Assembly (NCBI RefSeq): GCF_963675165.1
Contig: NC_087381.1
Coordinates: 7,533,149 to 7,597,148, forward strand
Length of the DNA stretch: 64,000 nt
Direction: 5' to 3'
Source of the DNA: Halichondria panicea
Lineage: Eukaryota; Porifera; Demospongiae; Suberitida; Halichondriidae
The position numbers and the translations under genes were made by a program. Shown here one piece after another: positions 1-60,650 of the stretch. The notes below the pieces were generated by a model that saw only the letters and a program-made list of their open reading frames with translations, searched no databases and was not told the DNA's origin. Numbering within the stretch: the first letter of the stretch is position 1; each line of letters opens with the position of its first letter.

Positions 1-2196
1 GACCTGTCTCCCAGAGCCGTGGGAACAGTTGCCACTCATATATGTAACCCTGGGTTCTTATTGGAGGGTGTGGTCAACAGGACTTGTGCAGAGAGTACAG
101 AGTTCACAGACTCTCCACCCATATGTCAACGTGGGTTGAAATCATTTTACAAATTAATTGACTTCACGTTACAACTGAAATATTTATTGCAGCTATTGTG
201 TGCAATGAGTTAGAAGCCATTGAAAATGGAACCATCTCGTATGCTCCCGACAATCAAGGGTCAGAGTACGACCTTGGAACAGTGGCCACCTACAGCTGTA
301 ATGATGGATTTGTACTAGTCGGACCTAACGAAACAAGAAGTTGCATGGAAGTTGAAACATTGGGAGAATTCAATGGAGTTGCTCCAACTTGTCAACGTAA
401 GTTTTGTGATACAGTTTCGTAAATTCTATAGCTATTATTATTTCTTTCCTACAGCTATTGTGTGCAATGAGTTAGAAGCCATTGCGAATGGAACCATCTC
501 ATATGCTCCCGACAATCAAGGGTCAGAGTACGACCTTGGAACAGTGGCCACCTACAGCTGTAACAATGGATTTGTACTAGTCGGACCTAACGAAACAAGA
601 AGTTGTGTGGAAGTTGAAACATTGGGAGAATTCAGTGGAGTTGCTCCAACTTGTGAACGTAAGTTTGTTGTATAGTTTCGAAATTCTATAGCTATTATTA
701 TTTCTTTCCTACAGCTATTGTGTGCAATGAGTTAGAAGCCATTGCGAATGGAACCATCTCGTATGCTCCAGACGATCAAGGGTCAGAGTACGACCTTGGA
801 ACAGTGGCCACCTACAGCTGTAACAATGGATTTGTACTAGTCGGGCCTAACGAAACAAGAAGTTGTATGGAAGTTGAAACATTGGGAGAATTCAGTGGAG
901 TTGCTCCAACTTGTGAACGTAAGTTTGTTGTATAGTAAATTCTATAGCTATTATTATTTCTTTCCTACAGCTATTGTGTGCAATGAGTTAGAAGCCATTG
1001 CGAATGGAACCATCTCGTATGCTCCTGACAATCAAGGGTCAGAGTACAACCTTGGAACAGTGGCCACCTACAGCTGTAACAATGGATTTGTACTAGTCGG
1101 ACCTAACGAAACAAGAAGTTGTGTGGAAGTTGAAACATTGGGAGAATTCAGTGGAGTTGCTCCAACTTGTGAACGTAAGTTTGTTGTATAGTTTCGAAAT
1201 TCTATAGCTATTATTATTTCTTTCCTACAGCTATTGTGTGCAATGAGTTAGAAGCCATTGCGAATGGAACCATCTCGTATGCTCCAGACGATCAAGGGTC
1301 AGAGTACGACCTTGGAACAGTGGCCACCTACAGCTGTGACAATGGATTTGTACTAGTCGGACCTAACGAAACAAGAAGTTGTATGGAAGTTGAAACATTG
1401 GGAGAATTCAGTGGAGTTGCTCCAACTTGTGAACGTAAGTTTGTTGTATAGTAAATTCTATAGCTATTATTATTTCTTTCCTACAGCTATTGTGTGCAAT
1501 GAGTTAGAAGCCATTGCGAATGGAACCATCTCGTATGCTCCCGACGATCAAGGGTCAGAGTACGACCTTGGAACAGTGGCCACCTACAGCTGTAACAATG
1601 GATTTGTACTAGTCGGGCCTAACGAAACAAGAAGTTGTATGGAAGTTGAAACATTGGGAGAATTCAGTGGAGTTGCTCCAACTTGTGAACGTAAGTTTGT
1701 TGTATAGTAAATTCTATAGCTATTATTATTTCTTTCCTATAGCTATTGTGTGCAATGAGTTAGAAGCCATTGCGAATGGAACCATCTCGTATGCTCCTGA
1801 CAATCAAGGGTCAGAGTACGACCTTGGAACAGTGGCCACCTACAGCTGTAACGATGGATTTGTACTAGTCGGACCTAACGAAACAAGAAGTTGTGTGGAA
1901 GTTGAAACATTGGGAGAATTCAGTGGAGTTGCTCCAACTTGTGAACGTAAGTTTGTACGTTGTATAGTTTCGTAAATTCTATTATTTCTTTCCTACAGCT
2001 ATTGTGTGCAATGAGTTAGAAGCCATTGCGAATGGAACCATCTCGTATGCTCCTGACAATCAAGGGTCAGAGTACGACCTTGGAACAGTGGCCATCTACA
2101 GCTGTGACGATGTGTTCATGCTCATTGGGTCTCCTGAGAGGACTTGTGTGTCGAGTGGAAACTTCTCTGGAATGCCACCTGTGTGCTCACTCACAC
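1..2196 (+). CDS. Gene A CCP block 1 (9 CCP exons)
   Basis: Exons 1-130 (partial G-type, 'GTVATHICNPGF'), seven N-type ('CNELEAIANGTISYAPD') at 193-396, 455-658, 715-918, 971-1174, 1231-1434, 1487-1690 and 1743-1946, and a V-type at 1999-2196. Each N exon is 204 bp and has the four CCP cysteines (VCNE, YSCN, RSC, PTC). Exons 715-1690 look like repeats of a roughly 516-bp two-exon unit, so this block has three more N exons than the later blocks. The first donor is gtgggt instead of gtgagt in the later copies. The 1743 exon is preceded by TATAG rather than TACAG. Confidence 0.85.
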
Positions 2197-5100
2197 GTAA
2201 GCTAACTTCTGTCTCCATTGACAATGGCCCTATCAAGGTTGCCATCACTTTGTCACAGTTCAAAATATCCTTTAGAACTGAAAAGCTCCAACCAGCTAAA
2301 CTTCCATTCAGAAGATAATTATAATCAATTATTATTGTTTGTGTACAGCTGTGTGTGGTGACCTTCCTGCCCTGGAGAACGGGGAGATCCTGTACAGTAG
2401 TGACCTGTCTCCCAGAGCCGTGGGAACAGTTGCCACTCATATATGTAACCCTGGGTTCTTATTGGAGGGTGTGGTCAACAGGACTTGTGCAGAGAGTACA
2501 GAGTTCACAGACTCTCCACCCATATGTCAACGTGAGTTGAAATCATTTTACAAATTAATTGACTTCACGTTACAACTGAAATATTTATTGCAGCTATTGT
2601 GTGCAATGAGTTAGAAGCCATTGAAAATGGAACCATCTCGTATGCTCCCGACAATCAAGGGTCAGAGTACGACCTTGGAACAGTGGCCACCTACAGCTGT
2701 AACGATGGATTTGTTCTAGTCGGAGTTAACGAAACAAGAAGTTGTGTGGAAGTTGAAACATTGGGAGAATTCAGTGGAGTTGCTCCAACTTGTGAACGTA
2801 AGTTTGTTGTATAGTTTCGTAAATTCTATAGCTATTATTATTTCTTTCCTACAGCTATTGTGTGCAATGAGTTAGAAGCCATTGCGAATGGAACCATCTC
2901 GTATGCTCCCGACGATCAAGGGTCAGAGTACGACCTTGGAACAGTGGCCACCTACAGCTGTGATGATGGATTTGTACTAGTCGGACCTAATGAAACAAGA
3001 AGTTGTATGGAAGTTGAAACATTGGGAGAATTCAGTGGAGTTGCTCCAACTTGTGAACGTAAGTTTGTTGTATAGTTTTGTAAATTCTATAGCTATTATT
3101 ATTTCTTTCCTACAGCTATTGTGTGCAATGAGTTAGAAGCCATTGCGAATGGATCCATTTCGTATGCTCCCGATAATCAAGGGTCAGAGTACGACCTTGG
3201 AACAGTGGCCACCTACAGCTGTAACGATGGATTTGTACTAGTCGGACCTAACGAAACAAGAAGTTGTATGGAAGTTGAAACATTGGGAGAATTCAGTGGA
3301 GTTGCTCCAACTTGTGAACGTAAGTTTGTTGTATAGTTTCGTAAATTCTATAGCTATTATTATTTCTTTCCTACAGCTATTGTGTGCAATGAGTTAGAAG
3401 CCATTGCGAATGGAACCATCTCGTATGCTCCCGACAATCAAGGGTCAGAGTACGACCTTGGAACAGTGGCCACCTACAGCTGTAACGATGGATTTGTACT
3501 AGTCGGACCTAACGAAACAAGAAGTTGTATGGAAGTTGAAACATTGGGAGAATTCAGTGGAGTTGCTCCAATTTGTGAACGTAAGTTTGTACGTTGTATA
3601 GTTTCATAAATTCTATTATTTTTTCCTACAGCTATTGTGTGCAATGAGTTACAAGCCATTGCGAATGGAACCATCTCGTATGCTCCCGACAATCAAGGGT
3701 CAGAGTACGACCTTGGAACAGTGGCCACCTACAGCTGTGACGATGTATTCATGCTCATTGGGTCTCCTGAGAGGACTTGTGTGTCGAGTGGAAACTTCTC
3801 TGGAATGCCACCTGTGTGCTCACTCACACGTAAGCTAACTTCTGTCTCCATTGACAATGGCCCTATCAAGGTTGCCATCACTTTGTCACAGTTCAAAATA
3901 TCCTTTAGAACTGAAAAGCTCCAACCAGCTAAACTTCCATTCAGAAGATAATTATAATCAATTATTATTGTTTGTGTACAGCTGTGTGTGGTGACCTTCC
4001 TGCCCTGGAGAACGGGGAGATCCTGTACAGTAGTGACCTGTCTCCCAGAGCCGTGGGAACAGTTGCCACTCATATATGTAACCCTGGGTTCTTATTGGAG
4101 GGTGTGGTCAACAGGACTTGTGCAGAGAGTACAGAGTTCACAGACTCTCCACCCATATGTCAACGTGAGTTGAAATCATTTTACAAATTAATTGACTTCA
4201 TGTTACAACTGAAATATTTATTGCAGCTATTGTGTGCAATGAGCTAGAAGCCATTGAGAATGGGACCATCTCGTATGCTCCCGACAACCAAGGGTCAGAG
4301 TACAACCTTGGAACAGTGGCCACCTACATCTGTGACGATGGATTTGTACTAGTCGGACCTAACCAAACAAGAAGTTGTGTGGAAGTTGAAACATTGGGAG
4401 AATTCAATGGAGTTGCTCCAATTTGTGAACGTAAGTTTTGTGATACAGTTTCGTAAATTCTATAGCTATTATTATTTCTTTCCTACAGCTATTGTGTGCA
4501 ATGAGTTAGAAGCCATTGCAAATGGAACCATCTCGTATGCTCCCGACAACCAAGGGTCAGAGTACAACCTTGGAACAGTGACCACCTACAGCTGTAACGA
4601 TGGATTTGTACTAGTCGGACCTAACGAAACAAGAAGTTGTGTGGAAGTTGAAACATTTGGAGAATTCAATGGAGTTGCTCCAATTTGTGAACGTAAGTTT
4701 GTTGTATAGTTTTGTAAATTCTATAGCTATTATTATTTCTTTCCTACAGCTATTGTGTGCAATGAGTTAGAAGCCATTGCAAATGGAACCATCTCATATG
4801 CTCTCGACAATCAAGGGTCAGAGTACGACCTTGGAACAGTGGCCACCTACAGCTGTGACGATGGATTTGTACTAGTCGGACCTAACGAAACAAGAAGTTG
4901 TGTGGAAATTGAAACATTGGGAGAATTCAATGGAGTTGCTCCAATTTGTGAACGTAAGTTTTGTAATACAGTTTCGTAAATTCTATAGCCATTATTATTT
5001 TTTTCCTACAGCTATTGTGTGCAATGAGTTAGAAGCCATTGCGAATGGAATCATCTCGTATGCTCCCGACAACCAAGGGTCAGAGTACAACCTTGAAACA

Positions 5101-8100
5101 GTGGCCACCTACAGCTGTAACGATGGATTTGTACTAGTCGGACCTAACGAAACAAGAAATTGTGTGGAAGTTGAAACATTTGGAGAATTCAATGGAGTTG
5201 CTCCAATTTGTGAACGTAAGTTTGTTGTATAGTTTCGTAAATTCTATAGCTATTATTATTTCTTTCTTACAGCTATTGTGTGCAATGAGTTAGAAGCCAT
5301 TGCGAATGGAACCATCTCGTATGCTCCCGACAATCAAGGGTCAGAGTACGACCTTGGAACAGTGGCCACCTACAGCTGTGACGATGTGTTCATGCTCATT
5401 GGGTCTCCTGAGAGGACTTGTGTGTCGAGTGGAAACTTCTCTGGAATGCCACCTGTGTGCTCACTCACACGTAAGCTAACTATTGAGAATGGCCTCATCA
5501 CTTTGTCATCATTCAAAATATCCTTTAAGCTCCCAACCAACTAAACCTCCATTAAGAAGTCTATATAATTGTTACAATAATTAGTTATTGTTTGTGTGTA
5601 CAGCTGTGTGTGGTGACCTTCCTGCCCTGGAGAACGGGGAGATCCTGTACAGTAGTGACCTGTCTCCCAGAGCCGTGGGAACAGTTGCCACTCATATATG
5701 TAACCCTGGGTTCTTATTGGAGGGTGTAGTCAACAGGACTTGTGCAGAAAGTACAGAGTTCACAGACTCTCCACCCATATGTCAACGTGAGTTGAAATCA
5801 TTTTACAAATTAATTTGACTTCACGTTACAACTGAAATATTTATTGCAGCTATTGTGTGCAATGAGTTAGAAGCCATTGAGAATGGAGCCATCTCGTATG
5901 CTCCCGACAACCAAGGGTCAGAGTACAACCTTGGAACAGTGGCCACCTACATCTGTAACGATGGATTTGTACTAGTCGGACCTAACGAAACAAGAAGTTG
6001 TGTGGAAGTTGAAACATTAGGAGAATTCAATGGAGTTGCTCCAACTTGTGAACGTAAGTTTGTTGCATAGTTTCGTAATTCTATAGCTATTATTATTTCT
6101 TTCCTACAGCTATTGTGTGCAATGAGTTAGAAGCCATTGCGAATGGAACCATCTCGTATGCTCCCGACAATCAAGGGTCAGAATACGACCTTGGAACAGT
6201 GGCCACCTACAGCTGTGACGATGGATTTGTACTAGTCGGACCTAACGAAACAAGAAGTTGTATGGAAGTTGAAACATTGGGAGAATTCAGTGGAGCTGCT
6301 CCAATTTGTGAACGTAAGTTTTGTGATACAGTTTCGTAAATTCTATAGCTATTATTATTTCTTTCCTACAGCTATTGTGTGCAATGAGTTAGAAGTCATT
6401 GCAAATGGAACCATCTCGTATGCTCCCGACAACCAAGGGTCAGAGTACAACCTTGGAACAGTGGCCACCTACAGCTGTAACGATGGATTTGTACTAGTCG
6501 GACCTAACGAAACAAGAAGTTGTGTGGAAGTTGAAACATTGGGAGAATTCAGTGGAGCTGCTCCAATTTGTGAACGTAAATTTGTTGTATAGTTTCGTAA
6601 ATTCTATAGCTATTATTATTTCTTTCCTACAGCTATTGTGTGCAATGAGTTAGAAGCCATTGCGAATGGAACCATCTCATATGCTCCCGACAATCAAGGG
6701 TCAGAGTACGACCTTGGAACAGTGGCCACCTACAGCTGTGACGATGGATTTATACTAGTCGGACCTAACGAAACAAGAAGTTGTGTGGAAATTGAAACAT
6801 TTGGAGAATTCAATGGAGTTGCTCCAATTTGTGAACGTAAGTTTGTTGTATAGTTTCGTAAATTCTATAGCTATTATTATTTCTTTCCTACAGCTATTGT
6901 GTGCAATGAGTTAGAAGCCATTGCGAATGGAACCATCTCGTATGCTCCCGACAATCAAGGGTCAGAGTACGACCTTGGAACAGTGGCCACCTACAGCTGT
7001 GACGATGTGTTCATGCTCATTGGGTCTCCTGAGAGGACTTGTGTGTCGAGTGGAAACTTCTCTGGAATGCCACCTGTGTGCTCACTCACACGTAAGCTAA
7101 CTATTGAGAATGGCCCCATCACTTTGTCATCATTCAAAATATCCTTTAAGCTCCCAACCAACTAAACCTCCAATAAGAAGTCTATATAATTGTTACAATA
7201 ATTAATTATTGTTTGTGTGTACAGCTGTGTGTGGTGACCTTCCTGCCCTGGAGAACGGGGAGATCCTGTACAGTAGTGACCTGTCTCCCAGAGCCGTGGG
7301 AACAATTGCCACTCATACATGTAACCCTGGGTTCTTATTGGAGGGTGTAGTCAACAGGACTTGTGCAGAAAGTACAGAGTTCACAGACTCTCCACCCATA
7401 TGTCAACGTGAGTTGAAATCATTTTACAAATTAATTTGACTTCACGTTACAACTGAAATGTTTATTGCAGCTATTGTGTGCAATGAGTTAGAAGCCATTG
7501 AGAATGGAGCCATCTCGTATGCTCCCGACAACCAAGGGTCAGAGTACAACCTTGGAACAGTGGCCACCTACATCTGTAACGATGGATTTGTACTAGTCGG
7601 ACCTAACGAAACAAGAAGTTGTGTGGAAGTTGAAACATTGGGAGAATTCAGTGGAGTTGCTCCAACTTGTGAACGTAAGTTTGTTGCATAGTTTCGTAAT
7701 TCTATAGCTATTATTATTTCTTTCCTACAGCTATTGTGTGCAATGAGTTAGAAGCCATTGCGAATGGAACCATCTCGTATGCTCCCGACAATCAAGGGTC
7801 AGAATACGACCTTGGAACAGTGGCCACCTACAGCTGTGATGATGGATTTGTACTAGTCGGACCTAACGAAACAAGAAGTTGTATGGAAGTTGAAACATTG
7901 GGAGAATTCAGTGGAGCTGCTCCAACTTGTGAACGTAAGTTTTGTGATAATTATAGTTTCGTAAATTCTATAGCTATTATTATTTCTTTCCTACAGCTAT
8001 TGTGTGCAATGAGTTAGAAGCCATTGCGAATGGAATCATCTCGTATGCTCCCGACAATCAAGGGCCAGAGTACGACCTTGGAACAGTGGCCACCTACAGC

Positions 8101-11100
8101 TGTGACGATGGCTTCATACTCATTGGGTCTTCCAATAGAGTCTGTGAAGATGATGGAGACATTCTTGGAACCTTTGCTGGAATTGCTCCGTCATGCGAGC
8201 GAGTTGCCATAGAGATCATGTTTGTCGAGCCAGAATACACAGCTTTCGAAGATGACATGACTGTCGTGGTGATGGTCATTACTGACAGACCAGTGGAGAC
8301 TCCATTATCATTCTACGTTGTTGGAGGTAATCTTATCATGCATACACATTCGGGGTTGTATAATTATAAGAGTTATAATTATATTTTTAATTGCTGCGTT
8401 CGGATCCATTCTGTAATTAGTATAATCATGTGCTGTATAGTGCAATGTAAATGGAATAATAAATTATTATGACTGTCTTTCTCACTACTATCATTTCTCC
8501 TCTGATTTATGTAGACGCTTATTTCCTATTTATCACGAGTATAGTCACCTCCTCTCACACACACACACACACACCCACTCACACCCACCCACTCCACACA
8601 GGTCCCACCGATCAACCCAATGTTATCCCATCTTTGCCAGCTCTTAACCGCAGTTTTGTACTTCCTATTAACTCCTCACTTATTGTTATTGAGCTGACAC
8701 TGGTCGACGATGACGTGAGCCTTGAACCCAATGAGAGGGTGCAGTATCGTCTCGTGCTCCCTGGGGGGTCTATGGGGGTGGAGCTTGGAAACCCTAATGT
8801 CACCTACGTCAACATCATTGATGATGATGGTACAAATTACATAAATATATTTACGTATGAGTGTGCATTTAAATCAATAATAATAATTATTAAGAGAACT
8901 TTCTAATTGTTTTCGTCATGATACGTGTTGTCACAGATCTTTTATCTAAGCAATGCATGTGATAGGTAGCTATTTCCTAGAGCTACTGGAATGCATTTCA
9001 AAGATACCTGCCGAAACACTACATTTTGAGGAAAACACACAATGCATTATAATAATAATTATAATTGTTTTTGCCCCCCTCCCCCGCCCACTCATACAGT
9101 AACGGTGGTTGAACTTGAAGATCAAGTGTTGACAATGTCAGAGGGTGACATCACCTACACCACCTGTATTGTCAAGAGCTCTGTGACGGCAGTACCAGTT
9201 ACCGTGGAGATAGTTGACGCAGCTGGATCAGCTGAATCTAATACTGGTAAACAAGACTATAATTATACTAATTGTGTGCCTTCAGTACATTTGTAAAAGA
9301 TAGAGGGAACTACTAAGAATGATGTATCGCACTAAAAACAAATAATTTTGATATTGCTGGGTTAATAATTATATGAAGTAACTCATATTTATACTCTCCC
9401 CTCATCACACGAACACACCACAGATTACCGTTCATTTTCTCCGGCCCTCATCGTGACCCTTGACCCTGAAAACAACCGAAGCTGTTTCTCTGGTGATATC
9501 ATAGATGACCTCATTGCTCTAGAGATTGATGAGAACTTTGACCTCTTGCTCCGAGATCCGTTGTTAGTGAGTGGAGTCTTGATTGGACAGGGGAACAGAA
9601 CCATGGTGATCATTATTGACAATGATGGTGCGTAAGATTCACTAATTAAAACAATTTATTACGAGAATTCTGTAATATTTCACAATAAGCCGTATAGCGT
9701 ATGTTCGAAATTTTCCGATATTTCGTATTAATTGTAGAGCATCATACGATAAATTATTTTGGACTACCACATTATACGTTAAACGTAACTACGTATCTGT
9801 GCAAATATAAAAAATTTGGCAATTCATATACAAAAATTTGCTCCAACAAAAATTACCCGCTACCTTTATCTACACCCACACACACACACACACCCCACAC
9901 AGTCGTGACCACCACCCACACACACGCACACACCCCACACAGTTGTGACCACCACCCTCAACCAACCAGACTTCAGAGTGTCAGAGAACGCTGGTGCCGT
10001 CACATTGTGTGTCACTAAGGATCTAGAAACTGCCAATCCGTTCAACGTTACCTTGACAACTATTGACGGCAGTGCAACAAGTATGTATGCCATATTAACT
10101 GTTTGAACAAAAAATTTCTTCTCAAAAAATCGATGCTACTATTAATTTTAGTCACTATAATATAACTTATTAATTTTACAGTCACTAATAATTATAACTT
10201 TTTTACACAGGGGGTGTGGACTTTTTTCTGGAGGAGGTGCTCTTAGTTACCCTGGAAACGGAGGCAGGGGCCATCACCTGCGTGGATATTGACATCATGG
10301 ATGATACTACTTTCGAAGATGTTGAAAATTTCCGAGTTGCTCTTTCAACTGGTTCAAATGATACGAATATCCAAACTGGAGAAATCGTAGAGTCAACTGT
10401 TCTTATTGACGACAGGGGTAAGAGAGGGCGTGGCATGCATGGGCGTAGCTATGTACATAAATACCGTATGGCTAGAAATGTCTGCGGCCCAAAAATTCTG
10501 CGAATAGCTGTATTTCTGCGGATAATATTTCTGCAAATTATGTTACATTAGGTGTGGTTAATAAGCATTTGTGGATAGTATTTCTGCGTTTACTCATTCA
10601 TTCGCAGAATTCGCAGAATTTTTGGGCCAGAGAAATTTCTAGCTATACGGTATGCTGTGTTAGGGGTAAGCAATGGAGAGAGGTTTCATTACAGCATTGT
10701 GTTCATTATTATCAGCAAAATTAATTATTTATTCCATGTTCTTCATCTGGTTCCCTCCTGCCCACACACAGCTCCAGAGGCACCGTTCGTCAACGACACT
10801 ATTGTGGGGGATCCCCTACTGACGGTACCTCTAACAAACCTCAACCTGAACGGCCTAGACCTCGGGATCGAAGGTCAACCCTCCCTCTGTTTCGAGATCC
10901 ATGGAGACTCTAACACTTACTTCAACTTAGTCACTGATAACTGTGTCACAGTCAATGCCCGCTATCATCCACTGAACGATTATTGGAACGTTATTAATCA
11001 AATCGGAGTTAGAGCTGTCAACGAAATGGGACAGTGTAAAAATATTGCAGTTGATCTTGATCGCTGCACCGCGTCTGTTGATGGTGTAGCCTTGACAACC

Positions 11101-11888: not shown

Positions 11889-12309
11889 TAACGAATAATT
11901 ACTACAGCTAGTTTTGTAGTTGCTAGTGAATGACTTAATTGACTTATATTTTTTTAGCTTTTTATGACCTTATGAATGACAAAAAAGTGTTTTACTCAAT
12001 GCAAATTACTGCAAACGTAGAGATGTGGGTGTCTTTGTATGCGCATGCGCACTAAGCATGAATGCAATACCGATTTATATCAAATTTAACGTAAAACAAG
12101 TGTTTCATTAGAGAAGAATCGGTCTGGAAAATCTTTGGAAGTAGGGGAAAGATCGTCACTAGAACAAACTGTTCAGTACAAAAGGGGGGTGTGTGTGCTG
12201 AAAGCTATGAATACCATCAGGAGCACATTTACGTACTCTGGTTGGTGGTATCATCTTTCCAAAGAAGAACCACGTGGAGCAGAGAACTCTGAAGTTAGTT
12301 CAGATCAAC
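11889..12309. other. A-B intergenic spacer
   Basis: Only 421 bp separate the gene A stop from the gene B start. It must hold the gene A 3' UTR and the gene B promoter and leader. No convincing AATAAA or TATA box was seen at the expected distances. Confidence 0.5.
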
Positions 12310-12379
12310 ATGGATGTTGGTCTACTTTTAGCTGCTTTGCTGGGAGCTGTGCTGCTGCATTCTAATTCGCTAGCTGGAG
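12310..12379 (+). CDS. Gene B exon 1: start codon and signal peptide
   Basis: ATG in the context aacATGG starts MDVGLLLAALLGAVLLHSNS followed by LAG, a classic hydrophobic secretion signal with likely cleavage near LA|GG. The exon ends in phase 1 at gtatat, matching the phase of every downstream CCP exon. Confidence 0.8.
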
Positions 12380-32219: not shown

Positions 32220-32258
<39 letters not shown>

Positions 32259-44724: not shown

Positions 44725-44973
44725 AGTTAATTGGTCATTGTGCATGTAGCCTCCATGCAGTTCACAGTTAATTGGTCATTGTGGCATCTAGCCTCCAGTT
44801 CACAGTTAATTGGTCATTGTGGCATCTAGCCTCCAGTTCACAGTTAATTGGTCATTGTGGCATGTAGCCTCCAGTTCACAGTTAATTGGTCATTGTGGCA
44901 TGTAGCCTCCAGTTCACAGTTAATTGGTCATTGTGGCATGTAGCCTCCAGTTCACAGTTAATTGGTCATTGTG
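44725..44973. repeat. 38-bp tandem repeat (~7 copies)
   Basis: The unit starts AGTTAATTGGTCATTGTGGC and continues ATGTAGCCTCCAGTTCAC; the last copy is partial. It lies about 0.85 kb upstream of gene D and is non-coding. Confidence 0.92.
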
Positions 44974-45770: not shown

Positions 45771-45826
45771 GACCAAAACAATTGCCATTCACCTCAGGAT
45801 AACATAGCTGGTTGAGTCTTCCAACC

Positions 45827-45920
45827 ATGGCTAACTCGCAAAGCTTGTGTTCTGTGCTAATATTGTCTGTCCTCCTTCATACTGCAATTGGAGCTAGTGA
45901 TGACCCCACCCTGGATGTCA
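45827..45920 (+). CDS. Gene D exon 1: start codon and signal peptide
   Basis: ATG in a good context (ccaaccATGG). It encodes MANSQSLCSVLILSVLLHTA then IGASDDPTLDV, a hydrophobic signal with likely cleavage near IGA|SDD. Donor gtaagt. Confidence 0.83.
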
Positions 45921-48900: not shown

Positions 48901-51900
48901 ATAATATACAACATAATAACGTAACATTATAAAATAAACAAACTATTACCTCTTCACCTCTTCTAATAGTTTTTGAGCAAAAACAAAGAATGGCGAGAGG
49001 AATTAGCGCAACTTGCAGCACTCGTTAGCTCTGCACTAGAAAGCTAGCTATTGGTAGCTGCAAGACTGAGCATGCACTGTTATTACTGCCATTAATATTA
49101 TAATGAACTTTCGATATCATTTTTGGCAACAATCATAGTAACTGTTGATCATTTTTTCCCACTCCTTTTCACCATTCTGTGAAATGTATGTACATGTATA
49201 GTGTACATTTTAACTGACATGTGTGTATTTAATAATAAATAATGTATATAATTTAATAATAGTCTATGGAAGAGAGTGGACAATAGAAACATAATTTAAT
49301 TGGCTTACAGGAGGTGATGTCGCTATTATTATAGAATAATCCCATGCACCATGCAGGATGATGCGCTCTAGTTACTTGGCAGCAGTAATTACCTTGATAG
49401 AAATGCACACACATCGATCAGAGTACTGGCAATCCTGGTGTGCATGCATTCAGTTGCTTTCATTCCATTATAGTTACCTGTATATAAGCACATTGTGTGA
49501 TACTGTATTGCCCACCCCTTATTACAGGTGCCTGTCTTGACCTACCTGCTTTCTTGCTTGGTTCCATCTCATACGACTTCAGGATTTTCCCAGAGATTGG
49601 TGGTCGACCATACGGAACAGTTGCCACGTACATGTGTGATGTTGGAACTATAATGGGAGAACCTACAAGAACTTGTGAGAATGGAGTGTGGTCAGGAAGT
49701 GTACCAAGCTGCGGGACGCCTCCAGGTAAGTAGACCCACTGTCTGTATTTTGGCATATAAATGATCAATCTCTCTCAGTCTTTACATGGTCAGAGTTATC
49801 TCCTTTACAGCGCCATGTCCAGAACTGGAACCTATTCCAAACGGAGCTATTACATATGGTCCTGATATGACTGCTCCTTTTAATTTGGGTACAAATGCTA
49901 CTCATACCTGTAATGATGGTTTCATTCTGACGGTCGGATCTGAGACTCGAGAGTGTTTACCCGGAGGGATATGGTCTGGCAGGATTCCTGTGTGCCAACG
50001 TATACGTAAGATTATTATCATGTGCTAAACTTCCTTTGGATCAATCGCAACTTATAGAGTTTTTATGTTCTCTTTGCCTGTAAATAGTTTGCGATGTGCC
50101 ATTCTCGCCACAGCACATGTTATCAGCTCGTGATGCAAAGTCTTTTATGTTCATTCTCCCTTACAGCTGGATGTCCAGAACTGGAACCTATTCCAAACGG
50201 AGCTATTACATATGGTCCAGATATGACTGCTGACTTTGATGTGGGTACAAATGCTACTCATACCTGTAATGATGGTTTCATTCTGACGATCGGATCTGAG
50301 ACTCGAGAGTGTTTACCCGGAGGGATATGGTCTGGCAGGATTCCTGTGTGCCAACGTATACGTAAGATTTGTTCTTATTATCATGTGCTAAACTTTCTTT
50401 GGATCAATTGCAACTTATAGAGTTTTTATGTTCTCTTTGCCTGTAAATAGTTTGCGATGTGCCATTCTCGCCACAGCACATGTTATCAGCTCGTGATGCA
50501 AAGTCTTTTGTGTTCATTCTCCCTTACAGCTGAATGTCCAGAACTGGCACCCATTCCAAACGGAGCTATTACATATGGTCCAGATATGACAGCAGATTTT
50601 GATGTGGGTACAAATGCTACTCATACTTGTAATGATGGTTTCATTCTGACGGTCGGATCTGAGACTCGAGAGTGTTTACCCGGAGGGATGTGGTCTGGCA
50701 GGGTTCCTGTGTGCCAACGTATACGTAAGATTTAGAAAGAGAATTTCTTATTGAATATGTGCTACAACTTCATTTTGATCGAATAAGTCTGAGAAAGCAA
50801 ATAATTACATCATTATTTCAGTATGTCATTAATTTTTTTTGTTTCTTTGTAAATGCCCTGGGAGCCATAGTCTGTGTATTTGCAGGATAATTATAAATTT
50901 AACCCAAATGTATAGCCTTGATTGTTTTCTCAACTACATTTTCTCCATTACATTTGTCTATAGGCTACATTACAATGTGTTTATGTTATCAGCTAATGTT
51001 GCAGTCAATCATTCTAATTATTCTCCTCTACAGCTGAATGTCCAGAACTGGCACCCATTCCAAACGGAGCTATTACATATGGTCCGGATATGACAGCAGA
51101 TTTTGATGTGGGTACAAATGCTACTCATACCTGTAATGATGGTTTCATTCTGACGATCGGATCTGAGACTCGAGAATGTTTACCAGGAGGGATATGGTCT
51201 GGCAGGATTCCTGTGTGCCAACGTATACGTAAGATTTGTTCTTATTATCATGTGCTACAACTTCTTTTGGATCAATCGCAGTTTTTATGTTCTCTTTGCC
51301 TGTAAATAGTTTGCGATGTGCCATTCTCGCCACAGCACATGTTATCAGCTCGTGTCTTTTGTGTTCATTCTCCCTTACAGCTGAATGTCCAGAACTGGCA
51401 CCCATTCCAAACGGAGCTATTACATATGGTCCAGATATGACAGCAGATTTTGATGTGGGTACAAATGCTACTCATACCTGTAATGATGGTTTCATTCTGA
51501 CGGTCGGATCTGAGACTCGAGAGTGTTTACCCGGAGGGATATGGTCTGGCAGGATTCCTGTGTGCCAACGTATACGTAAGATTTAGAAAGAACATTTCTT
51601 ATTGAATATGTGCTACAACTTCATTTTGATCGAATAAGTCTGAGAAAGCAAATAATTAGATCAATATTTATTTGATCATTATTTCAGTATGTCATTAATT
51701 TTTTTGTTTCTTTGTAAATGCCCTGGGAGCCATAGTCTGTGGATTTGCAGGATAATTATAAGTTTAACCCAAATGTATAGCCTTGATTGTTTTCTCAACT
51801 ACATTTTCCCCATTGCATTTTCCTATATTATAGGCTACATTACAATGTGTTTATGTTATCAGCTCGTATTGCAGTCAATTATTCTCCCTTACAGCTGAAT

Positions 51901-54900
51901 GTCCAGAACTGGCATCTATTCCAAACGGAGCTATTACATATGGTCCGGATATGACTGCTGACTTTGATGTGGGTACAAATGCTACTCATACCTGTAATGA
52001 AGGTTTCATTCTGACGGTCGGATCTGAGACTCGAGAGTGTTTACCCGGAGGGATATGGTCTGGCAGGATCCCTGTGTGCCAACGTATACGTAAGTTTTGT
52101 TAGTCTCTGTGAGAAAATAATTATAGTTCATAAAATTAATTGAATGAGCTACAACTTCATTTTGATCGAACATAAGAATCATTTGTGACCCATATTATAT
52201 AGGCTCTGAGAAAGCAAGTAATTACCTGCGTGCATAACATCATTGTGCATCAGTATGTACTTGATCTTTAAACCATTTTTTCTTATTGGTCTGTAAATGC
52301 CCTATAATATTTTATAGGAGCCATAATTATTCTGTGTATTTGCAGGATAATCATGTGTTTAACCCAAATGTATAGCCTTGATTGTTTTCTCAACTGCATT
52401 TTTTTTATAGGCTACAGGCCTATACTGAGCTATGTATGATACTGTGTATATCTGGTACTTCAGTATTGTCTCCCCAACAGCTGACCAGTGTCCCCCGCTG
52501 TCCACGTTTCCAAATGGAATGATCACATACTCTTCGGGGCCTCTCTTAACTTTCCCTGTGGGTACCGAGGCTGTTTATGAGTGTAATGCACCCGAGGGCT
52601 ATTGTCTCCCGGTTGACGCTACATTGAGGGAGTGTCAGCCTTCGGGCACATGGTCTGGAGTTGAACCAGTCTGTGAAAGTAAGAAACAACATTGAATGGA
52701 TAATAAATGATATATGGGACATTTTTGGCGGAGTATGAATTGTGCGCATGACATGTTATCTAGAATATTTTGCGGGTGAAAGCAAATGAGCCAAATCAGC
52801 AGAAAAGTTTACCCTTTGTGATCTAACTATTGCGTTCTGGCAAGGATCGTGTTTACTTACTAGTAATAATTTAGGTTTTGCGGATTTTATTGTTGCGAAT
52901 TGATCAACCATCTCTAAGTTCGCAAATGTTTGATGCTCGCAAAACATTCTAGTAATACGGTATGTTTTCTTTGCTGGAGAGCTGCATGTTCCTTATTTCA
53001 GAGCTATAGGGTATAAAGTATATGAGACAAAACTAGGTGAATATACAGAACTGTCTATTTGACGATCATCTGAATGAATCAGCATCTCAGCATTAAATAA
53101 TTATACAGTTTATGCATGTCATTGATTGATGACAATAACATTTACATATAGCGGGTAATTTTCGCGGGGACAAAATATTCGTGGTTCAGCAATATTGAGA
53201 CACTTCATAGGTAATATTTTCGTGGTTGGAGCTTGCACTGCAGGTAAAGGTAGGCAAGGTCGCTTCATTTGTGGGTAAAATATTCGTGGTCAGACCTCCA
53301 ACCACGAAAACCACGAATATTTTGCCCCACGAAAATTACACGCTATACGGTATATCTGTATTGACTCTTATACGTTTCTTATTTATTTATAGGAATTACC
53401 TGTGAGATCATTGTGCTCGTAAATGGAAGAGTAGAGTATTCTGGGCCATTACAAGTCGGCGCTACGGCAACCCAATCGTGCACAGGGGCAGGTGTACTCA
53501 CAGGAGGAAGAGTTCGGATATGTACCAGTCCTCAGTTATCCGTGTCGTGTGACACACCGGGAGAATGGGAGGAAGAAGCGTCACAGTGCGGTTAGTGACA
53601 CTATAATATACTTGAGTGTTAGTGTAGTGAAGCCATGTAGCCAATAACAGGCAGACTAACAGTGTAATAAAGAAAGTGGCCTGTTAACACACATGCAGGT
53701 CCTAACACTGAATATAAATTATACATACCGTATATAGTCACTATATAGCTGGTAATTTCAGGGCGGATGTTTTTTTCGTTTGAAGCAAATACTTTACCCA
53801 CGAATGAAGCCTAACATTTACCTGCAGTGCAAGCAACCACGAAAATATTATCCACTAAGTGACTAAAACAAATGTTTTGCCCCTCCCCCCCCCCAGAAAA
53901 TTACTGGCTATACGGTATATACCATGCATGTTGATCGTTGCTATAATTATATATAAGTACACTGTTAAAAATGGGTAGTTACAATAGCACCCAAAGTGCT
54001 ATGCCAACACTCACCTAATGGTGCTATCACAACACTAAGAGTGCAGTCGTAACTGCTACGTGTTACTAGAACAATAAAGGGTGCTATTATACACTTATAA
54101 GTGCTTGTGGAACACTTTAAACAGTGTTGTGCATGCACTTACCTAGTTGTTAAAATCATATTACTCTAACTATACACCAGATGGTGTTACTCAAATAAGA
54201 ATTGTGTGATTGTAGCACTATACATGGTGCAATGTAAGCACCTCTACAAATCACCTGCATGCAAATCAAGGCCAGTCTATAATGATTCGTGTAGTTGCAT
54301 GTGTAAATAAATAGTTGCTTATATAGTAACAAACCCGTTCCATTAAAATAGTTGAATCTGGTATAATTATTATACCTTTATATTCAAGCATGCAAGTAGA
54401 TTATAATTATAGTCACCTTATTTATTATACTTATTCAGTATAAATTCTAATCACATGCGTAATTATGTATACAGGGGTGAAGCAGCACACTTGTACTGAT
54501 GACGGAACAATTGGCCCTGTGAGGAACTTTCCAAGAAAAAATTAGTGCACTTTTCAAGTGTACCGGCAATATTTTAGCTATTCAGTATTTATAACTTATG
54601 TGATGAACCAGTACTAGTTATCATTATTAGTTACTGTAAAACTATGTGTTTGAAGTTGCAACATCTATTGAGGTCTAGACTATGTGCATGTCACGCTAAC
54701 GGACAAATTAATGCCCAACAATAATTATTATTAACAATTCAATCGTCTGAAAAATCATACATCCTGTATTTAGCAAAGTAGCTGGCTTATAGTGTGTTCT
54801 TTCTACTCGTACAGTTGCCCTGCAAATTTAACTCTTACTTTGCTCCCACCCCTCCCCTCTTCCATGCAAGGGCATACACTGATGATGTGATCATAATTAA

Positions 54901-57900
54901 TTGATGAGCACAGACTCAAATGCGTGGTGGGTAGCCAAGACTACATAAACAAAACAAAATCGTGGGTGGTAGACGTGCAGCACTGATCTCACGTGAACCT
55001 TGTGATAGACAGCTGCCTGCATGAGAGTCTCTGCACACAGCTGCGTGCACCTTAACTGTACAAAGGCGCCAGGCCTACTCTAGCTCTGTACTGTGCTCTG
55101 GTACTACATGGACTAAGTTGCTAGATGTACTACACTGCAAGATGGCACACTGCTTTGACTCGGAACTATAGAGTAAGTTGCTGCAAAACCATTGTTGTGC
55201 TAAAAAGCTTGACATAGACAGACTGCAAGTCTACTACTCACTACTATAATTGTAACTATATAATAATTCTTGTTGGGCTTTGTGGGCAGCTGTCCGTCAG
55301 TCTGATATGTTGGGCTTTGTGGGCAGCTGTCCGTCCGTCTGATATGCTGGGCTTTGTGGGCAGCTGTCCGTCAGTCTGATATGTTGGGCTTTGTGGGCAG
55401 CTGTCCGTCAGTCTGATATGTTGGGCTTTGTGGGCACTTGTCTGTCAGTCTGATATGTTGGGCTTTGTGGGCACGTGTCCGTCAGTTAGATGTATGTTGA
55501 GCGTTAGGAACACTTTCCTGTCAGACTGGTTTTTCGCACGTATCTACATTTGCATACAAATCATCATAATTATAATTTTTGTCTTCCGATTATTGTTAAA
55601 TTAATTTCCAATGACAACAAGATAATGGTTGTTTCTTACAAAATTATCGCATCGTAAGAGCTATAGGTACTCTTTTCATGCAGGGTTCATGGAGTCGAGC
55701 TATTTAAACGAGGTTAAAGAATATGCGTCGCAAATTGAGATTCAATATCTGTCCAAAGATAAACCACTGCTCTTTAAAAGGAATAGTCCAAAAACAAAGC
55801 GTAACAAAGGTGCTATCAGGAGTGATATGATCGACCAGCAGTTACAGATGTGCGTATATACTTACCTTCTATCCACCACTGACCGATTATGTCTATGTAA
55901 GTTCACTATTAATCATTATTGTGTTCAAGCATATAGCTGTAAATGTTTGCAGTAGTAATAGAATTTTTTGAAATTACAGGAAAAGATACCTATAGATTTA
56001 CTTTTGAGGTAAATTGGAAAGAATTCGAACAAAGGAGAACAATGTTAAGCTACAGGAGCTGGTCGAAGACTATGCAGTCACTGGTGCAGTCACAATCTAA
56101 TGGTAAATAGAAACCCATATCTTCAAACATACATTTTTTTTTATTCAGTTCTGAAGATAATACTGTAAGAAGAAGGATGCAGTACAAATGATATTTGTCA
56201 AGCTGCTGCTCCACGTATGTAATGCATAAACAGTTACAAATACTTGATACTTGAGAACAGATTCTTCTGTTGCCCTTGAATTCATCCTGTGTGGGGGGGT
56301 ATATGCTTATTATAACGAGAATAACCCTGTCATCATACATATATAATTATACACAGTAATGCATGCACACTGGATATTTGGAAGAGGTGACAACAGTTGT
56401 TAAAGTGTTAGGCTTTCGGCTTATTTGAATAATTGTCTCCTACTCACTTATATCACTGCCTACTGTTTTTGTGAGCCCCATCCTTATCCCATCATAATAT
56501 ATACATGCAGGTGGATGACATGCAACGTTCGTTCAAGGTAGAAAAAGTGCTATTGAATCTGGATCAATGAACTACTTCGTCATCGTAGAGAAAGAAGTGT
56601 ATGAAGTAGATTCATTCTATGAAACTCTTGTACTATGTTTTTGACATTTTAGTACCCACGTGCATGTCTGCATGGCATCCTTTTATTTTTTATTTTTAAG
56701 GTCCCGAACTGCCTAAGTGTATTGTGGTCGTAGTTATTAAACACTTTATGAGGTTATAGGTATACATATCTTCATACTTTTATTGTATGCTATCGTGATG
56801 CATATCATTATACACATGCTATAATTATGTTACGTCATTTAAGTCAAGTGCATGAGCTTATCGAGAAGTGCAATAAGCATGCATGCAATATTTTATGCTT
56901 TGCATGAAGAGTAGCAATGACAACTGTACCTGTAGTAACAGCAGCACCCATCCCCAGTGCTTTAATAACACCATTGTAGGTGTAGTTGTAAAAGTTACAC
57001 ACAGTTTGGAGTTGCAGTAACTCCAAGAAAGTGCAAGTACAGCACATTTTCATGCTGTTACAACTCCAAAATGAGTGTTTTAATAACACTAAAATCTGGT
57101 GCTGTAATAACTCCATATATGAGTGCCATATTTGGTACAATGGTTTTACCCCACTTTTGGGTGTTACAATAGCACCACATTTTTAACAGTGTAATTTCAC
57201 AAGTGTGACTAGTTCAAGTACAATGGTTTAGAGAATGCAAAATGCAGCCATTTGATTGATGTCCATTGTATTTGTTATAGTCAATTATGTAATCATGTGA
57301 TCATTTTGTTTTACAGTTACTGTTGTGAATGATACGGCTATTGGAGATCCCCTTATGACTGTACCTCTCAACATTCTCAACAAGACATCTTTCTTTGAAG
57401 CCAGCATTAACAATAATATAGGCCCCAACGATATCATAAATCTATGCTATGAGCTTCACGGTCGCAGAGATGCTTTCGTTAACCTTGTGAGTGATGAATG
57501 CATTGGCGTGAATGCACATTACGAGCTAGTACAACCCAGCGAACCACGAGAAGACATAAACATCATTGATAATATTTACGTGCGAGCCACGGATAATGTA
57601 GGAATGTGTCAGAATATTCGAGTTGCCCTGAACGAAGGTGGTGTGTGCACTGCAAGTGTTAATGGAGCAGATATTGCTGATATGTATCAGGCAAACAGGA
57701 TCAGCATTCGAAGGTATACTAATCGCGTTCGTATCATGGTCCCAAATTGCGAAAATGTCAATCTGGTGATGTGGGTATTCTGTCGTCAGAGTACATTCTG
57801 GAGCACATTTCGTACTGACAACAATGGAGCAGAGCTGACGTTTCAAGCTCACATGATCAAGTTCGTGATAGCAAGAGGTTTTAATCTCCGAGAAACATCA

Positions 57901-58432
57901 CACGGAATAATTGGTGAGTCCTACACTTTATTCTCAATTGTGTGTGTAACAACTCCTTTATAATGACCCTATAATTATAGCTTCTATCTTATTTTATAAA
58001 GAAGGTGTATTGGCTGCTTTTATATATACAACAGTCATGTTTAGTGTTAATTGCCATTACCCAAATTGACTCTTCTACTATTTTTACACCACTACAGGTC
58101 AGTTCTGGAACATCCCAATCCTTGTGGAGCCATTCACAGGTTCCATTCGATCATCCGCATCCACTGACAATCTTTACCAAGTTACGATTCAACATCCCAA
58201 TGAGAGGCGCGAATTTACTGCTTGGCTGTACCCTCTCACCTGGGAACACCGACGGGAATATTGCCTTTACGCTGGGAACCAACAAGCTGGGTCCGTGTAC
58301 GAGGTTGAGAGCCCTAACGACCCTGTGATTGAGGGCACGTATGCAGACTATATCGTGGACACAGCCTATGGTACTGATTTTACTTTTACTCAATTTGACG
58401 AGGGAAGATGCAGCTCCGTGGTTATTGGGTGA
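45827..58432 (+). CDS. Gene D: secreted IgGFc-binding-type / Calx-beta / CCP / ITIH-C-like protein
   Basis: Fifteen exons: 45827-45920, 46050-47564, 47623-47760, 47865-48101, 49528-49725, 49811-50005, 50167-50361, 50530-50724, 51034-51228, 51381-51575, 51895-52089, 52481-52678, 53393-53590, 57317-57913, 58098-58432. The total, 4680 bp, gives about 1559 residues in one frame. Order: signal peptide, IgGFc-binding-type N-terminal domain, one Calx-beta, nine CCPs, ITIH-C-like C-terminus. The first is known from mucus and secreted proteins such as FCGBP; with CCPs it suggests an extracellular binding protein. No membrane segment was seen. All introns are phase 1. A 3.2-kb transposon sits in the intron before the last domain. 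Confidence 0.85.
46050..47564 (+). CDS. Gene D IgGFc-binding-type N-terminal domain
   Basis: One 1515-bp exon (505 codons), by far the longest in the window. Key text: FITTEQESSSFTLETRWPG, VYVLNDETTTTDAYMAINC, GSIITSDKPLAVFSGHQCG, CDYLVEQLPPHPTYGDLFFM, QPVTMAGYTL and AFWGFAYGFAQQ. The order 'T-S-x-KP-x-AVFSGH-x-C ... C-D-x-LVEQLPP' is the hallmark of the IgGFc-binding domain family. It starts after a clean TTTTCTCCCTGCAG acceptor. Confidence 0.87.
47623..48101 (+). CDS. Gene D Calx-beta domain
   Basis: Exons 47623-47760 (WIRAVDQVVLETVGTVDLMF) and 47865-48101 (WRIINSPTLPNVPYVVTILD then DDIPEPVEVVEV, ending TIIDDQG). Two-exon structure with a mid-domain phase 1 intron, as in genes A and B. It includes two cysteines (QCVARENC), unusual for this domain. 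Confidence 0.8.
48345..48666. mobile_element. CAGTGGCATAGGAAG MITE in gene D intron
   Basis: Left CAGTGGCATAGGAAG and right CTTCCTACGCCACTG are inverted. 322 bp, no coding. A related single end (CTTCCTACGCCACTG) also occurs at about 48171-48185. No clear target duplication. Confidence 0.65.
49528..49725 (+). CDS. Gene D CCP 1
   Basis: ACLDLPAFLLGSISYDFRIF, TVATYMCDVGTIMG, TRTCENGVWSGSVPSCG: complete sushi module with the conserved Trp. The paralogous exon in pseudogene C (41572-41768) is frameshifted. Confidence 0.88.
49811..52089 (+). CDS. Gene D CCPs 2-7 (six near-identical CCP exons)
   Basis: Exons 49811-50005, 50167-50361, 50530-50724, 51034-51228, 51381-51575 and 51895-52089, each 195 bp and phase 1-1. 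Common text: CPELAPIPNGAITYGPDMTA, GTNATHTCNDGFIL, TRECLPGGIWSGRIPVCQRI. A sequon (NAT) is kept in each. Introns also repeat: long introns after the third, fifth and sixth exons share sequence, and the shorter introns (after the first, second and fourth) share another set. Confidence 0.9.
52481..52678 (+). CDS. Gene D CCP 8
   Basis: QCPPLSTFPNGMITYSSGPL, AVYECNAPEGYCLPVD, LRECQPSGTWSGVEPVCES. A standard sushi module with one extra cysteine in the GYC stretch. Confidence 0.87.
52759..52962. mobile_element. TACCGTATTACTAGA-type MITE (left end worn)
   Basis: TCTAGAATATTTTGCGGG through CAAAACATTCTAGTAATACG then GTA. Closely resembles 40988-41213, but the left TACCGTATTA tip is lost. Confidence 0.75.
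53143..53354. mobile_element. TATAGCGGGTAATTTTCG-type MITE
   Basis: Left ATATAGCGGGTAATTTTCGC and right GAAAATTACACGCTATACGG, with further inner mirrored 'ATATTCGTGGT'. About 210 bp, in the intron before CCP 9. Confidence 0.7.
53393..53590 (+). CDS. Gene D CCP 9 (divergent)
   Basis: ITCEIIVLVNGRVEYSGPLQ, ATQSCTGAGVLTGGRVRIC, GEWEEEASQC. CCP-like spacing with one extra cysteine (SVSCD) and a weaker donor, gttagt. The next coding exon is 3.7 kb away. Confidence 0.72.
53726..53917. mobile_element. TACCGTATATAG-type MITE, second copy
   Basis: Left TACCGTATATAGTCACTATA followed by GCTGGTAATTTC; right AAAATTACTGGCTATACGGT then A. About 192 bp, next to the larger transposon. Confidence 0.65.
53960..57191. 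mobile_element. 3.2-kb DNA transposon with CACTGTTAAAAATG inverted ends and TA duplication
   Basis: The left end CACTGTTAAAAATGGGTAGT continues into TTACAATAGCACCCAAAGTG; the right end, reverse-complemented, starts CACTGTTAAAAATGTGGTGC then TATTGTAACACCCAAAAGTG. TA is present on both outer sides (53958-53959 and 57192-57193). Both subterminal regions carry repeated 'GTGTTA/TAACACC'-like motifs. Its only sizeable frame (about 55680-55900) has no recognised transposase motif, so it is probably non-autonomous. It fills most of the last long intron of gene D. Confidence 0.75.
55273..55497. repeat. 37-bp tandem repeat (~6 copies) inside the transposon
   Basis: The unit begins TTGGGCTTTGTGGGCAGCTG and continues TCCGTCAGTCTGATATG. 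Non-coding; likely an internal expansion of the element. Confidence 0.9.
57317..58432 (+). CDS. Gene D C-terminal ITIH-C / vWD-like domain
   Basis: Exons 57317-57913 and 58098-58432, ending TGA. Motifs: NDTAIGDPLMTVPLNI, LCYELHGRRDAFVNLVSDEC, VPNCENVNLVMWVFC, SHGIIG|QFWNIPI, CLYAGNQQAGSVYEVE and VIEGTYADYIVD. The intron site and cysteine pattern match genes A and B. It lacks the Thr/Pro stalk of gene B. Confidence 0.75.
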
Positions 58433-59199: not shown

Positions 59200-60650
59200 A
59201 CAATCGAGAGATGTGCTTCGTAATGGAGGTAATTAACAACGAGATAGTCGAGCAGTCCGAGGAAACGTAACGTCCAGTCTCGCATTATTACCAGTTGAGG
59301 TGAGAATGTTCCATTATTATTATACCATAATTATATTGCTGCAATGTTTTGCAAGTGAGAAAAACCTTTGCAAAGCATGAGGAACCAAATCATTGGATCA
59401 CATTTCTGTGACAATAATAATTGTTTTAAAATCTGTTTAGCAGGCCATGCACCTTCTTATTACATTGCACACCTATAGTGACCTCTCTGTGTCGCCTGAC
59501 CCTTCAGTTATTTATAACAGACAATGATGAGCCACCTCCTCCGCCCACACACACCATCACAACACCCCACCCCGCCCACGGTCATACTGGGCACAACACC
59601 CACACCCCCGCCCACGATCACACTGGGCACAATACCCAAACCCCCGTCCACGATCACAGTGGGTACAACACTCACGTGCACCCCCCAACGACCATATACA
59701 CACTGTAACTGGCGACCATATACACACTGTAACTGGCAACAATACGATTGTGGGCGACCCACTTTTTTCTGGATGCTACTATAGAGATAAGCAACCCACA
59801 GCAATCCACAGACAGCCACAGTAATGAGAGTATAGTGAAATGGCATCAACAGTCTACCATAACTTTATGTATGGTAAGTGTCATACTCTATTACTAGAAT
59901 GTTTGCAGCATACTTCACAGGGTTGATCAATTCTCAGCAATAAATCACAAAACCTAAATTAGTATATACTGTGACTGTCTGTGGAATTGCTGTGGGTTGC
60001 TTCTCTCTAGTATTGCATTCAGTTTTGCCTAAGGCATAATTTTTGTGATGGTAACCATGTGCACTGTGCAATATTGCGATGGCAGTCACACAACATAATC
60101 AGTTATCACTCTTGTAACATGACATGCAGCAGTAATGAATTGTGAAGCACCTGTAGATCTATAGCGCCCACTTTTTTAAGTGCTTGCATTGACAGTAAAC
60201 TTTTCGACTATATATGGTCGTTACAATCACTATTATTGTCTCATTATTATATTGAGGGCACTCACTACACACAGCTGGAGCAGGTGTTGCACTCGTGCTC
60301 TTGCAAATCGTATAGATACGCAAGTTTGGCTTTATTCTTACCACTTACTCACTCACACACTTACTCAGGTCAATTCTGGAATGTTCCGGTGACTATACGC
60401 AAGTACACGTACACAGGTGGCGAAGAACTCTATCTCGACGTAGACCAGCTATACGTTGTTACGATTACACATCCAAATACCGGGAGCACTCGCCGATTTA
60501 TTGCCGAATTCGGACACAACAAATCAGAATTGTTGTTAGTGACTCCGTTGTCGAGGGGAGATACTCACAGTACGTTGTAGACAGCCTTTTTGATTATGAT
60601 TTTGACTATTTTCCCTGCAATGCATGCAGACATTTGTATCTAACTAATTT
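59200..60650 (+). pseudogene. Pseudogene E: decayed copy of the 3' end of gene B
   Basis: Three fragments in gene B order. 59200-59300 matches the end of exon 34134-34279 (CAATCGAGAGATGTGCTTCG) with inserted bases. 59475-59770 matches the start of exon 34836-35595 through the Thr/Pro linker and breaks off at GTGGGCGACCCACTTTT. 60369-60640 matches the last exon (GQFWNVPVTIRKYTYTGGEE) with an internal loss after AEFG that shifts the frame. Intron sequence of gene B (about 36205-36540) is also recognisable near 60050-60360. Most of the C-terminal domain is missing, so this is a dead duplicate. Confidence 0.85.

Follow-up and report, generated by a model that had tools for sequence, protein, structure and literature searches.

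In a 64,000-nucleotide stretch of the genome of the sponge Halichondria panicea (contig NC_087381.1, positions 7,533,149 to 7,597,148; hereafter, the window), the same C-terminal domain, encoded in two exons, is found in three genes with different front ends (A, B and D) and in a broken copy (E). This domain, which we denote CT (CT1 and CT2 for its exons 1 and 2), marks a sponge protein family that is expanded across the genome and in which the same tail is attached to different front ends. The window is the final 64 kb of the 7.6 Mb contig (C5) in a genome of 131 Mb and 39 contigs.

The common domain became apparent in an all-against-all comparison of the open frames. Over the compared regions of CT1 (positions 10792-11320 in A, 35079-35595 in B and 57328-57913 in D), A and D are 44% identical (E 1.2e-45), A and B 38% (E 1.7e-33), and B and D 37% (E 4e-38); in CT2, the identity among the three genes is 37-48%. 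A single phase-1 intron, with the donor G/GT and the acceptor AG/GT (the slash marks the splice site), interrupts CT in all three genes and splits the same Gly codon of the motif HG[LI][LI]G/QFW. E, which matches the start of the exon 2 frame of B at 81% identity over 68 residues, is a broken copy in which CT1 is mostly lost and CT2 harbors a deletion and a frame change. The initial annotation of this DNA, made from the letters alone, had proposed a two-exon C-terminus with one intron position, joined to different N-terminal modules in A, B and D and left as a pseudogene in E, and all of this is borne out by the present analysis.

Front ends of the window genes

The front ends consist of CCP (Sushi) and Calx-beta exons in A and B, and of an IgGFc-binding domain followed by CCP exons in D, which is the window gene with an intact IgGFc-binding domain; no match to this domain was detected in the parts of A and B that were read. 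Among the window exons, Pfam Sushi was matched with E values of 3.4e-9, 5.4e-8 and 4.1e-4, and Calx-beta scored above the cut-off in three exons of B (E 7.4e-8, 3e-7 and 8e-7); some other window exons did not reach the cut-off of Pfam (E 3.1e-5 and 0.013 for Calx-beta, E 0.015 and 0.28 for Sushi).

Two of the gene descriptions in the initial annotation stand in part. A had been described as a CCP array; the array is there and continues upstream of the window, with seven of its 38 exons outside, and Calx-beta exons are present in this gene as well. Ahead of the CCP array lies a further Calx-beta array, the first recognised exon of which is 21 kb upstream of the window; this array probably belongs to A. 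B had been described as a combination of CCP, TB-like and Calx-beta modules, and the CCP and Calx-beta modules were recovered, but no Pfam family matched the TB-like one (13758-14087). An exon of B at 17014-17478, also without a Pfam family, has two relatives at 69-73% DNA identity in C5:4.288-4.310 Mb. In D, no Pfam family matched the exon at 47825-48112, which is Calx-beta-like by eye.

Between B and D, copy C of the IgGFc-binding domain (38867-40379) is spread over three reading frames, is 65% identical to that of D and seems to be broken; no CT was found with this copy (38867-41764). Genome-wide, the IgGFc-binding domain has 122 matches, many of them clustered (e.g. C1, 14.6-17.7 Mb) where no CT copy was found.

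The join of the front end to CT is firm in B, where a single open frame runs through the Calx-beta-like tail, the linker and CT1. In D, the last CCP exon and CT are separated by 3.7 kb without a recognised exon, so the join in this gene is inferred only. This gap could be taken to mean that the CT exons are separate genes beside unrelated arrays and that their union is an artefact of our reading. Given the single open frame of B and the phase-1 acceptor on CT1 of A and D, we regard such an artefact as very improbable; moreover, the two hydrophobic frames that start with ATG in the gap of D are unconvincing as signal-peptide exons. The features of the window are collected in Table 1. In addition, the gene region contains minisatellites with units of 21 bp (33656-34015), 38 bp (44725-44973) and 37 bp (55271-55486), and the contig end (position 64000) carries no telomere-like repeat.

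Table 1. Features of the window, with positions counted from its first nucleotide
Feature	Position	Strand	Basis and remarks
Gene A, CCP (Sushi) exon array	1..8196	+	local hidden Markov model; 31 exons in the window or across its start; Pfam Sushi E 5.4e-8 for 7700-8014
Gene A, Calx-beta half-exons downstream of the CCP array	8641..10417	+	local profiles; Pfam Calx-beta E 3.1e-5 for 10198-10548, below cut-off
Gene A, CT exon 1	10772..11320	+	GDPL at the start of the domain (from 10792)
Gene A, CT exon 2 and stop	11566..11888	+	DNA reading, splicing
Gene B, signal-peptide-like first exon	12310..12390	+	end approximate; consensus GTRAG donor not found
Gene B, CCP/Calx-beta exon mosaic	13444..34279	+	Pfam and local profiles; includes the exon of no known family at 17014-17478
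Gene B, open frame: Calx-beta-like tail (by eye), Pro/Thr linker, CT exon 1	34836..35595	+	
Gene B, CT exon 2 and stop	36548..36885	+	DNA reading, splicing
Copy C, IgGFc-binding domain broken over three frames, with CCP remnants	38867..41764	+	
Gene D, signal-peptide-like exon	45827..45920	+	GTRAG donor at 45921
Gene D, IgGFc-binding exon	46016..47564	+	PF17517 E 7e-36
Gene D, nine CCP exons	49528..53590	+	six are recent tandem copies; ninth weak (Pfam Sushi E 0.28)
Gene D, CT exon 1	57317..57913	+	splicing; modelled structure
Gene D, CT exon 2 and stop	58098..58432	+	DNA reading, splicing
E, truncated copy of the B 3' end, with the linker, the CT1 start and a damaged CT2	59491..60640	+	

CT copies in the genome and in a second sponge

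Three CT queries, namely, those from D, from B and from a divergent third copy, led to largely the same places in the genome, about 37 in all: 21 in C5 7.15-7.60 Mb, six elsewhere on C5, eight on C1 and two on C14. This count takes in partial and damaged copies and omits seven short fragments, and the numbers are lower bounds. From the fetched stretches and the window, we assembled 29 spliced CT sequences, all of which have the CT intron at the same position and in the same phase. The tripeptide GDP is found at the start of CT in all 29, followed by Leu in 28 and by Val in one, and eight Cys columns are invariant among the 10 members compared. The protein ends within 20 residues after the last Cys in 28 of the 29 copies, the exception (L019) being cut short, and no membrane segment was seen by eye in these 28; one copy (L021) contains stop codons. 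Judging from these ends and from the signal-peptide-like first exons of B and D, the CT proteins look secreted, in agreement with the initial annotation. E and five fetched partial loci (L006, L016, L025, L026 and L027) were left unspliced, and among the latter five a pattern scan detected the NDT..GDP motif in L026 only, as GDPL. At four loci (C5:7333-7420 kb), two CT domains follow each other in a row; in the two loci measured, the paired domains are 53-54% identical within a locus, and each is 95-97% identical between loci.

CT is under purifying selection. The ratio of nonsynonymous to synonymous substitution rates (dN/dS) is 0.07-0.74 in the 24 measurable pairs out of 26, the other two having saturated dS, and lies below 0.40 in 23 of these 24.

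A scan of bacterial and archaeal genomes gave 22 pattern matches to CT, of which one was confirmed, and a scan of viral contigs gave another 22, none of which was confirmed. The confirmed match is the record LWTN01000179.1 (L054), which is filed as a metagenome-assembled genome of a Cycloclasticus symbiont of a Poecilosclerida sponge. In this record, which as a homologue supports a sponge origin, Calx-beta exons precede a CT that contains GDPL and the same phase-1 intron, and part of a further CT exon 2 is present as well; because these are sponge-type exons with introns, the record is probably host DNA that was placed in a bacterial bin and thus became part of a bacterial reference genome. 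The CT of this record is 60% identical to the H. panicea copy at 7209 kb of C5 and groups with it (support 87/73), so the CT subfamilies seem to be older than the split of the two sponges.

Module exchange ahead of CT

The modules before CT were mapped with local profiles, and splice sites were scored by a simple rule, not from RNA. Beyond the window, CT is again preceded by differing modules. The gene at 7192-7210 kb of C5 has, in the part read, Calx-beta only; IgGFc-binding, Calx-beta and CCP modules occur with CT at 7151-7167 kb, and Calx-beta and CCP modules with two CTs at 7418 kb. On C1, the CT locus at 4.03 Mb contains an IgGFc-binding and a von Willebrand D (VWD) domain, along with weak CCP and Calx-beta matches, and at 9.12 Mb a VWD domain lies ahead of a broken CT; VWD domains of the PF00094 type adjoin CT only in some C1 loci. 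Of the 59 CCP exons, 57 were scored as phase 1 at both ends, as were 50 of 66 Calx-beta half-exons and all three CT1 exons, so that these modules are, for the most part, spliceable ahead of CT without breaking the frame.

Two comparisons of close relatives bear on the exchange of front ends. The CT of D is 92% identical at the protein level to the CTs at 7434, 7450 and 7466 kb of C5, with dS of 0.10-0.13. In the DNA comparison with the 7434 kb copy, the whole CT block is alike (1,242 bp at 88%), the similarity ends at 57304, just before the CT1 acceptor, and upstream the CCP exons alone match; the 14.5 kb read ahead of the 7434 kb CT gave no IgGFc-binding domain. The CT of B is also 92% identical to that of a relative at 4.289 Mb, with dS of 0.58; the two have the CT exons in common but not the CT intron, the module next to CT is Calx-beta in B and CCP in the relative, and the matches that lie farther upstream are a few CCP exons and the exon of the 17014-17478 type. 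Both comparisons fit module exchange ahead of CT, with the reservation that the loss of upstream similarity alone does not prove a swapped front end because introns decay fast in these genes. Within A, the CCP array contains recent tandem blocks of about 1.6 kb that are 94% identical including the introns, and therefore the number of CCP copies probably changes fast.

Predicted fold of CT and the GDP motif

An AlphaFold2 model of CT1, built from the three window sequences, has ten strands at moderate confidence (predicted TM-score, pTM, 0.65; mean predicted local distance difference test, pLDDT, 61.5). In the Foldseek search with this model, RGMB, the best match, is followed by VWF, MUC5AC, FCGBP and MUC2. 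In a second-look alignment against 992 chains with VIA-align, VWF, mucin, RGMB or FCGBP chains take up 29 of the first 31 listed rows, with Z 6.9-12.4, to be read against the yardstick that models without a clear match usually peak at Z 7-8. The other two of the 31 are the cricket green pigment protein and Cypridina luciferase, and row 32, an unrelated chain, has Z 6.3. On this modelling, CT1 is predicted to have the VWD fold. The initial annotation had stated that its reading would be refuted if the shared end proved to be a generic vWD domain of a known family; the predicted fold goes halfway towards this, but at the sequence level PF00094 misses CT, with none of its 21 genome matches falling on a CT copy and no listing for the 10 CT members scanned.

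The seven VWD sequences that were fetched from among these 21 matches all contain GDPH, and the His is absent from CT in all 29 spliced copies. In domain D10 of FCGBP, replacement of the His of GDPH with Asn inhibited the cleavage between Asp and Pro, and GDPH is also present in ITIH3/5/6, in a domain with a predicted VWD-like structure that is not annotated as VWD in databases (PMC10880436). Since GDPH has become GDPL or GDPV in CT, this domain should not cleave itself and should stay attached, that is, self-cleavage appears to have been lost. The only recurrent relative of CT in Pfam is the C-terminal domain of ITIH (ITI_HC_C, PF06668), which was weakly matched in five of 10 diverse CT members with the best E of 0.0021, the next family being matched in two of the 10.

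Possible functions of the CT proteins

In the reading that we prefer, CT is the constant tail of very large secreted sponge proteins, in which the front ends bind and CT assembles or anchors the molecules; we regard this reading as evenly poised between right and wrong. Under this model, the front ends are built from exchangeable exons for Calx-beta, CCP, IgGFc-binding and PF00094-type VWD modules, and their binding partners would be microbes, glycans or adjacent cells; CT would link the molecules to one another or fasten them to the matrix, a role that VWD domains have in mucins and FCGBP. With GDPL or GDPV in place of GDPH, CT would remain uncut and attached, and the family would grow by tandem duplication. 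Calx-beta repeats bind calcium in other proteins. A role in assembly combined with adhesion or recognition is what we infer for the CT proteins from these architectures.

Several results weigh against this reading. No structure in the Foldseek search matched the CT1 model at E 0.001 or better, the best E (for RGMB) being 0.0041, and residues 1-47 of the model, which hold the GDP motif, have pLDDT below 50; because of this low confidence, the equivalence of GDPL and GDPH is not established structurally. The model of CT2 is unusable (mean pLDDT 41.7). Identification of CT as a generic VWD domain by sequence had to be rejected: not only does PF00094 miss it but hhalign against seven VWD sequences of the genome gave a probability of 0.2%, and a search of PDB sequences with the CT profile (10 rows) found nothing up to E 10. 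The ITI_HC_C scores seen were all below the Pfam cut-off (17.1 and 12 bits compared to 27), neither D nor the CT of LWTN01000179.1 matched this family, and a six-frame genome search with PF06668 detected nothing at E up to 1. Finally, the ratio of nonsynonymous to synonymous differences per site (pN/pS) among CCP exons is below 1, namely, 0.58 in A (37 of 38 exons, on the 345 of 666 pairs that were of equal length and little diverged) and 0.34 in D (six of nine exons, 15 pairs), which speaks against strong diversification. Positive selection was accordingly rejected, being seen neither in the CT pairs nor in the CCP arrays of A and D.

The lack of excess amino acid change in CT and the CCP arrays is compatible with another possibility, in which the genes encode plain matrix proteins whose CT stabilises the sponge matrix in an ITIH-like manner and whose cluster grew by neutral unequal crossing-over. 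Vertebrate ITIH stabilises the matrix on hyaluronan. The weak match of CT to the ITIH C-terminus and the recent tandem blocks in the CCP array of A are in line with this proposal, which we nevertheless hold to be unlikely: several classes of front ends are combined with one tail, and none of the eight genome matches of VIT lies near a CT locus. All eight are on C9, C12, C13 and C16, which yielded no CT copies, and VIT genes were rejected as a source of CT, with no CT match in the two 6.5 kb VIT loci read.

Another alternative is that these are immune proteins of a mucus or complement type directed at microbes, in which CT cross-links FCGBP-like and CCP-like capture molecules. The locus on C1 that combines IgGFc-binding, VWD and CT and the one at 7151-7167 kb of C5 that combines IgGFc-binding, Calx-beta and CCP modules with CT favor such a role. 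IgGFc-binding, Sushi and Calx-beta are named among the domains in the legend of a figure on sponge pattern-recognition receptors, and 62% of the sponge receptors were expressed in some individuals only (PMC8242945). Genes with Calx-beta and Sushi are among those that changed expression after exposure to microbial molecules (PMC6208332). However, the receptor classes in the excerpts of PMC8242945 that we consulted are not defined by CT, which is no part of what the consulted text of either paper describes, and we consider this explanation rather unlikely.

The idea of a constant tail that assembles or anchors variable binding modules has a stronger version, in which one tail, a VWD domain with a disabled self-cleavage site, and rapidly exchanged front ends of variable copy number would provide individual repertoires for self/non-self recognition or for binding microbes; we think it quite unlikely that this version is correct. 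To our knowledge, the genes behind self/non-self recognition in sponges are still debated. In Amphimedon, grafts showed no significant enrichment for aggregation-factor-mediated adhesion, according to the part of the report that we consulted, a result that argues against a straightforward role of such genes in allorecognition in that sponge (PMC5450542).

CT now comes with 29 spliced copies for profile building, a predicted fold and mapped loci, and its GDPL motif yields a testable chemical prediction, namely, that no cleavage occurs between Asp and Pro. Two questions are opened by these observations: whether sponge aggregation factors, FCGBP-like mucus proteins and CCP proteins are united in a single family by a shared C-terminus, and whether individuals differ in the front ends.

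Comparison with known systems

MAFp3 is a protein of about 35 kDa that is contained in one precursor with MAFp4. The genes described here could be sponge aggregation factors proper, with CT being the named Wreath domain, that is, the MAFp3-type part behind the Calx-beta arms; we see this as a serious possibility with the chances somewhat against it. A C-terminal domain with a length of about 290 residues follows Calx-beta arrays in A, in the gene at 7193-7210 kb of C5 and in the second sponge record, and the tandem cluster and the VWD-like predicted fold of CT fit as well. Grice 2017 reportedly describes clusters of sponge aggregation factors that combine Calx-beta, VWD and Wreath domains and have undergone extensive domain shuffling. 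By this description, the Calx-beta arrays, clustering and shuffled domains are shared with the genes analysed here, in which a VWD-type domain is predicted for CT1, but the tail here is also found with CCP, IgGFc-binding and PF00094-type VWD front ends, of which IgGFc-binding and CCP lie outside that description. Our search of the literature on sponge aggregation factors and related proteins revealed no description of CT and no paper on the Wreath domain, and for MAFp3/MAFp4 it returned unrelated papers only. The text consulted of PMC8380372, which cites Grice 2017, terms aggregation factors allorecognition and cell-adhesion proteoglycans. Given this and the description attributed to Grice 2017, the statement in the initial annotation that no described family has this set of combinations was probably too strong.

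The heavy chains of ITIH resemble CT in the C-terminal position of the domain, in Asp-Pro near its start and in the VWD-like predicted fold, the last being that of the ITIH3/5/6 domain (PMC10880436). They differ in that no VIT domain is near the CT loci and in that the residue after GDP in CT is Leu or Val, never His, in the 29 spliced copies. FCGBP and the gel-forming mucins have in common with the CT family the predicted VWD fold and, in some members such as D, an IgGFc-binding front domain, and a C1 locus, in which a VWD domain accompanies IgGFc-binding and CT, adds a further likeness; the sponge proteins differ from them in the Calx-beta and CCP arrays and in the divergence of the CT from the VWD domains that PF00094 recognises. 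The CT family may be linked to the sponge aggregation factors.

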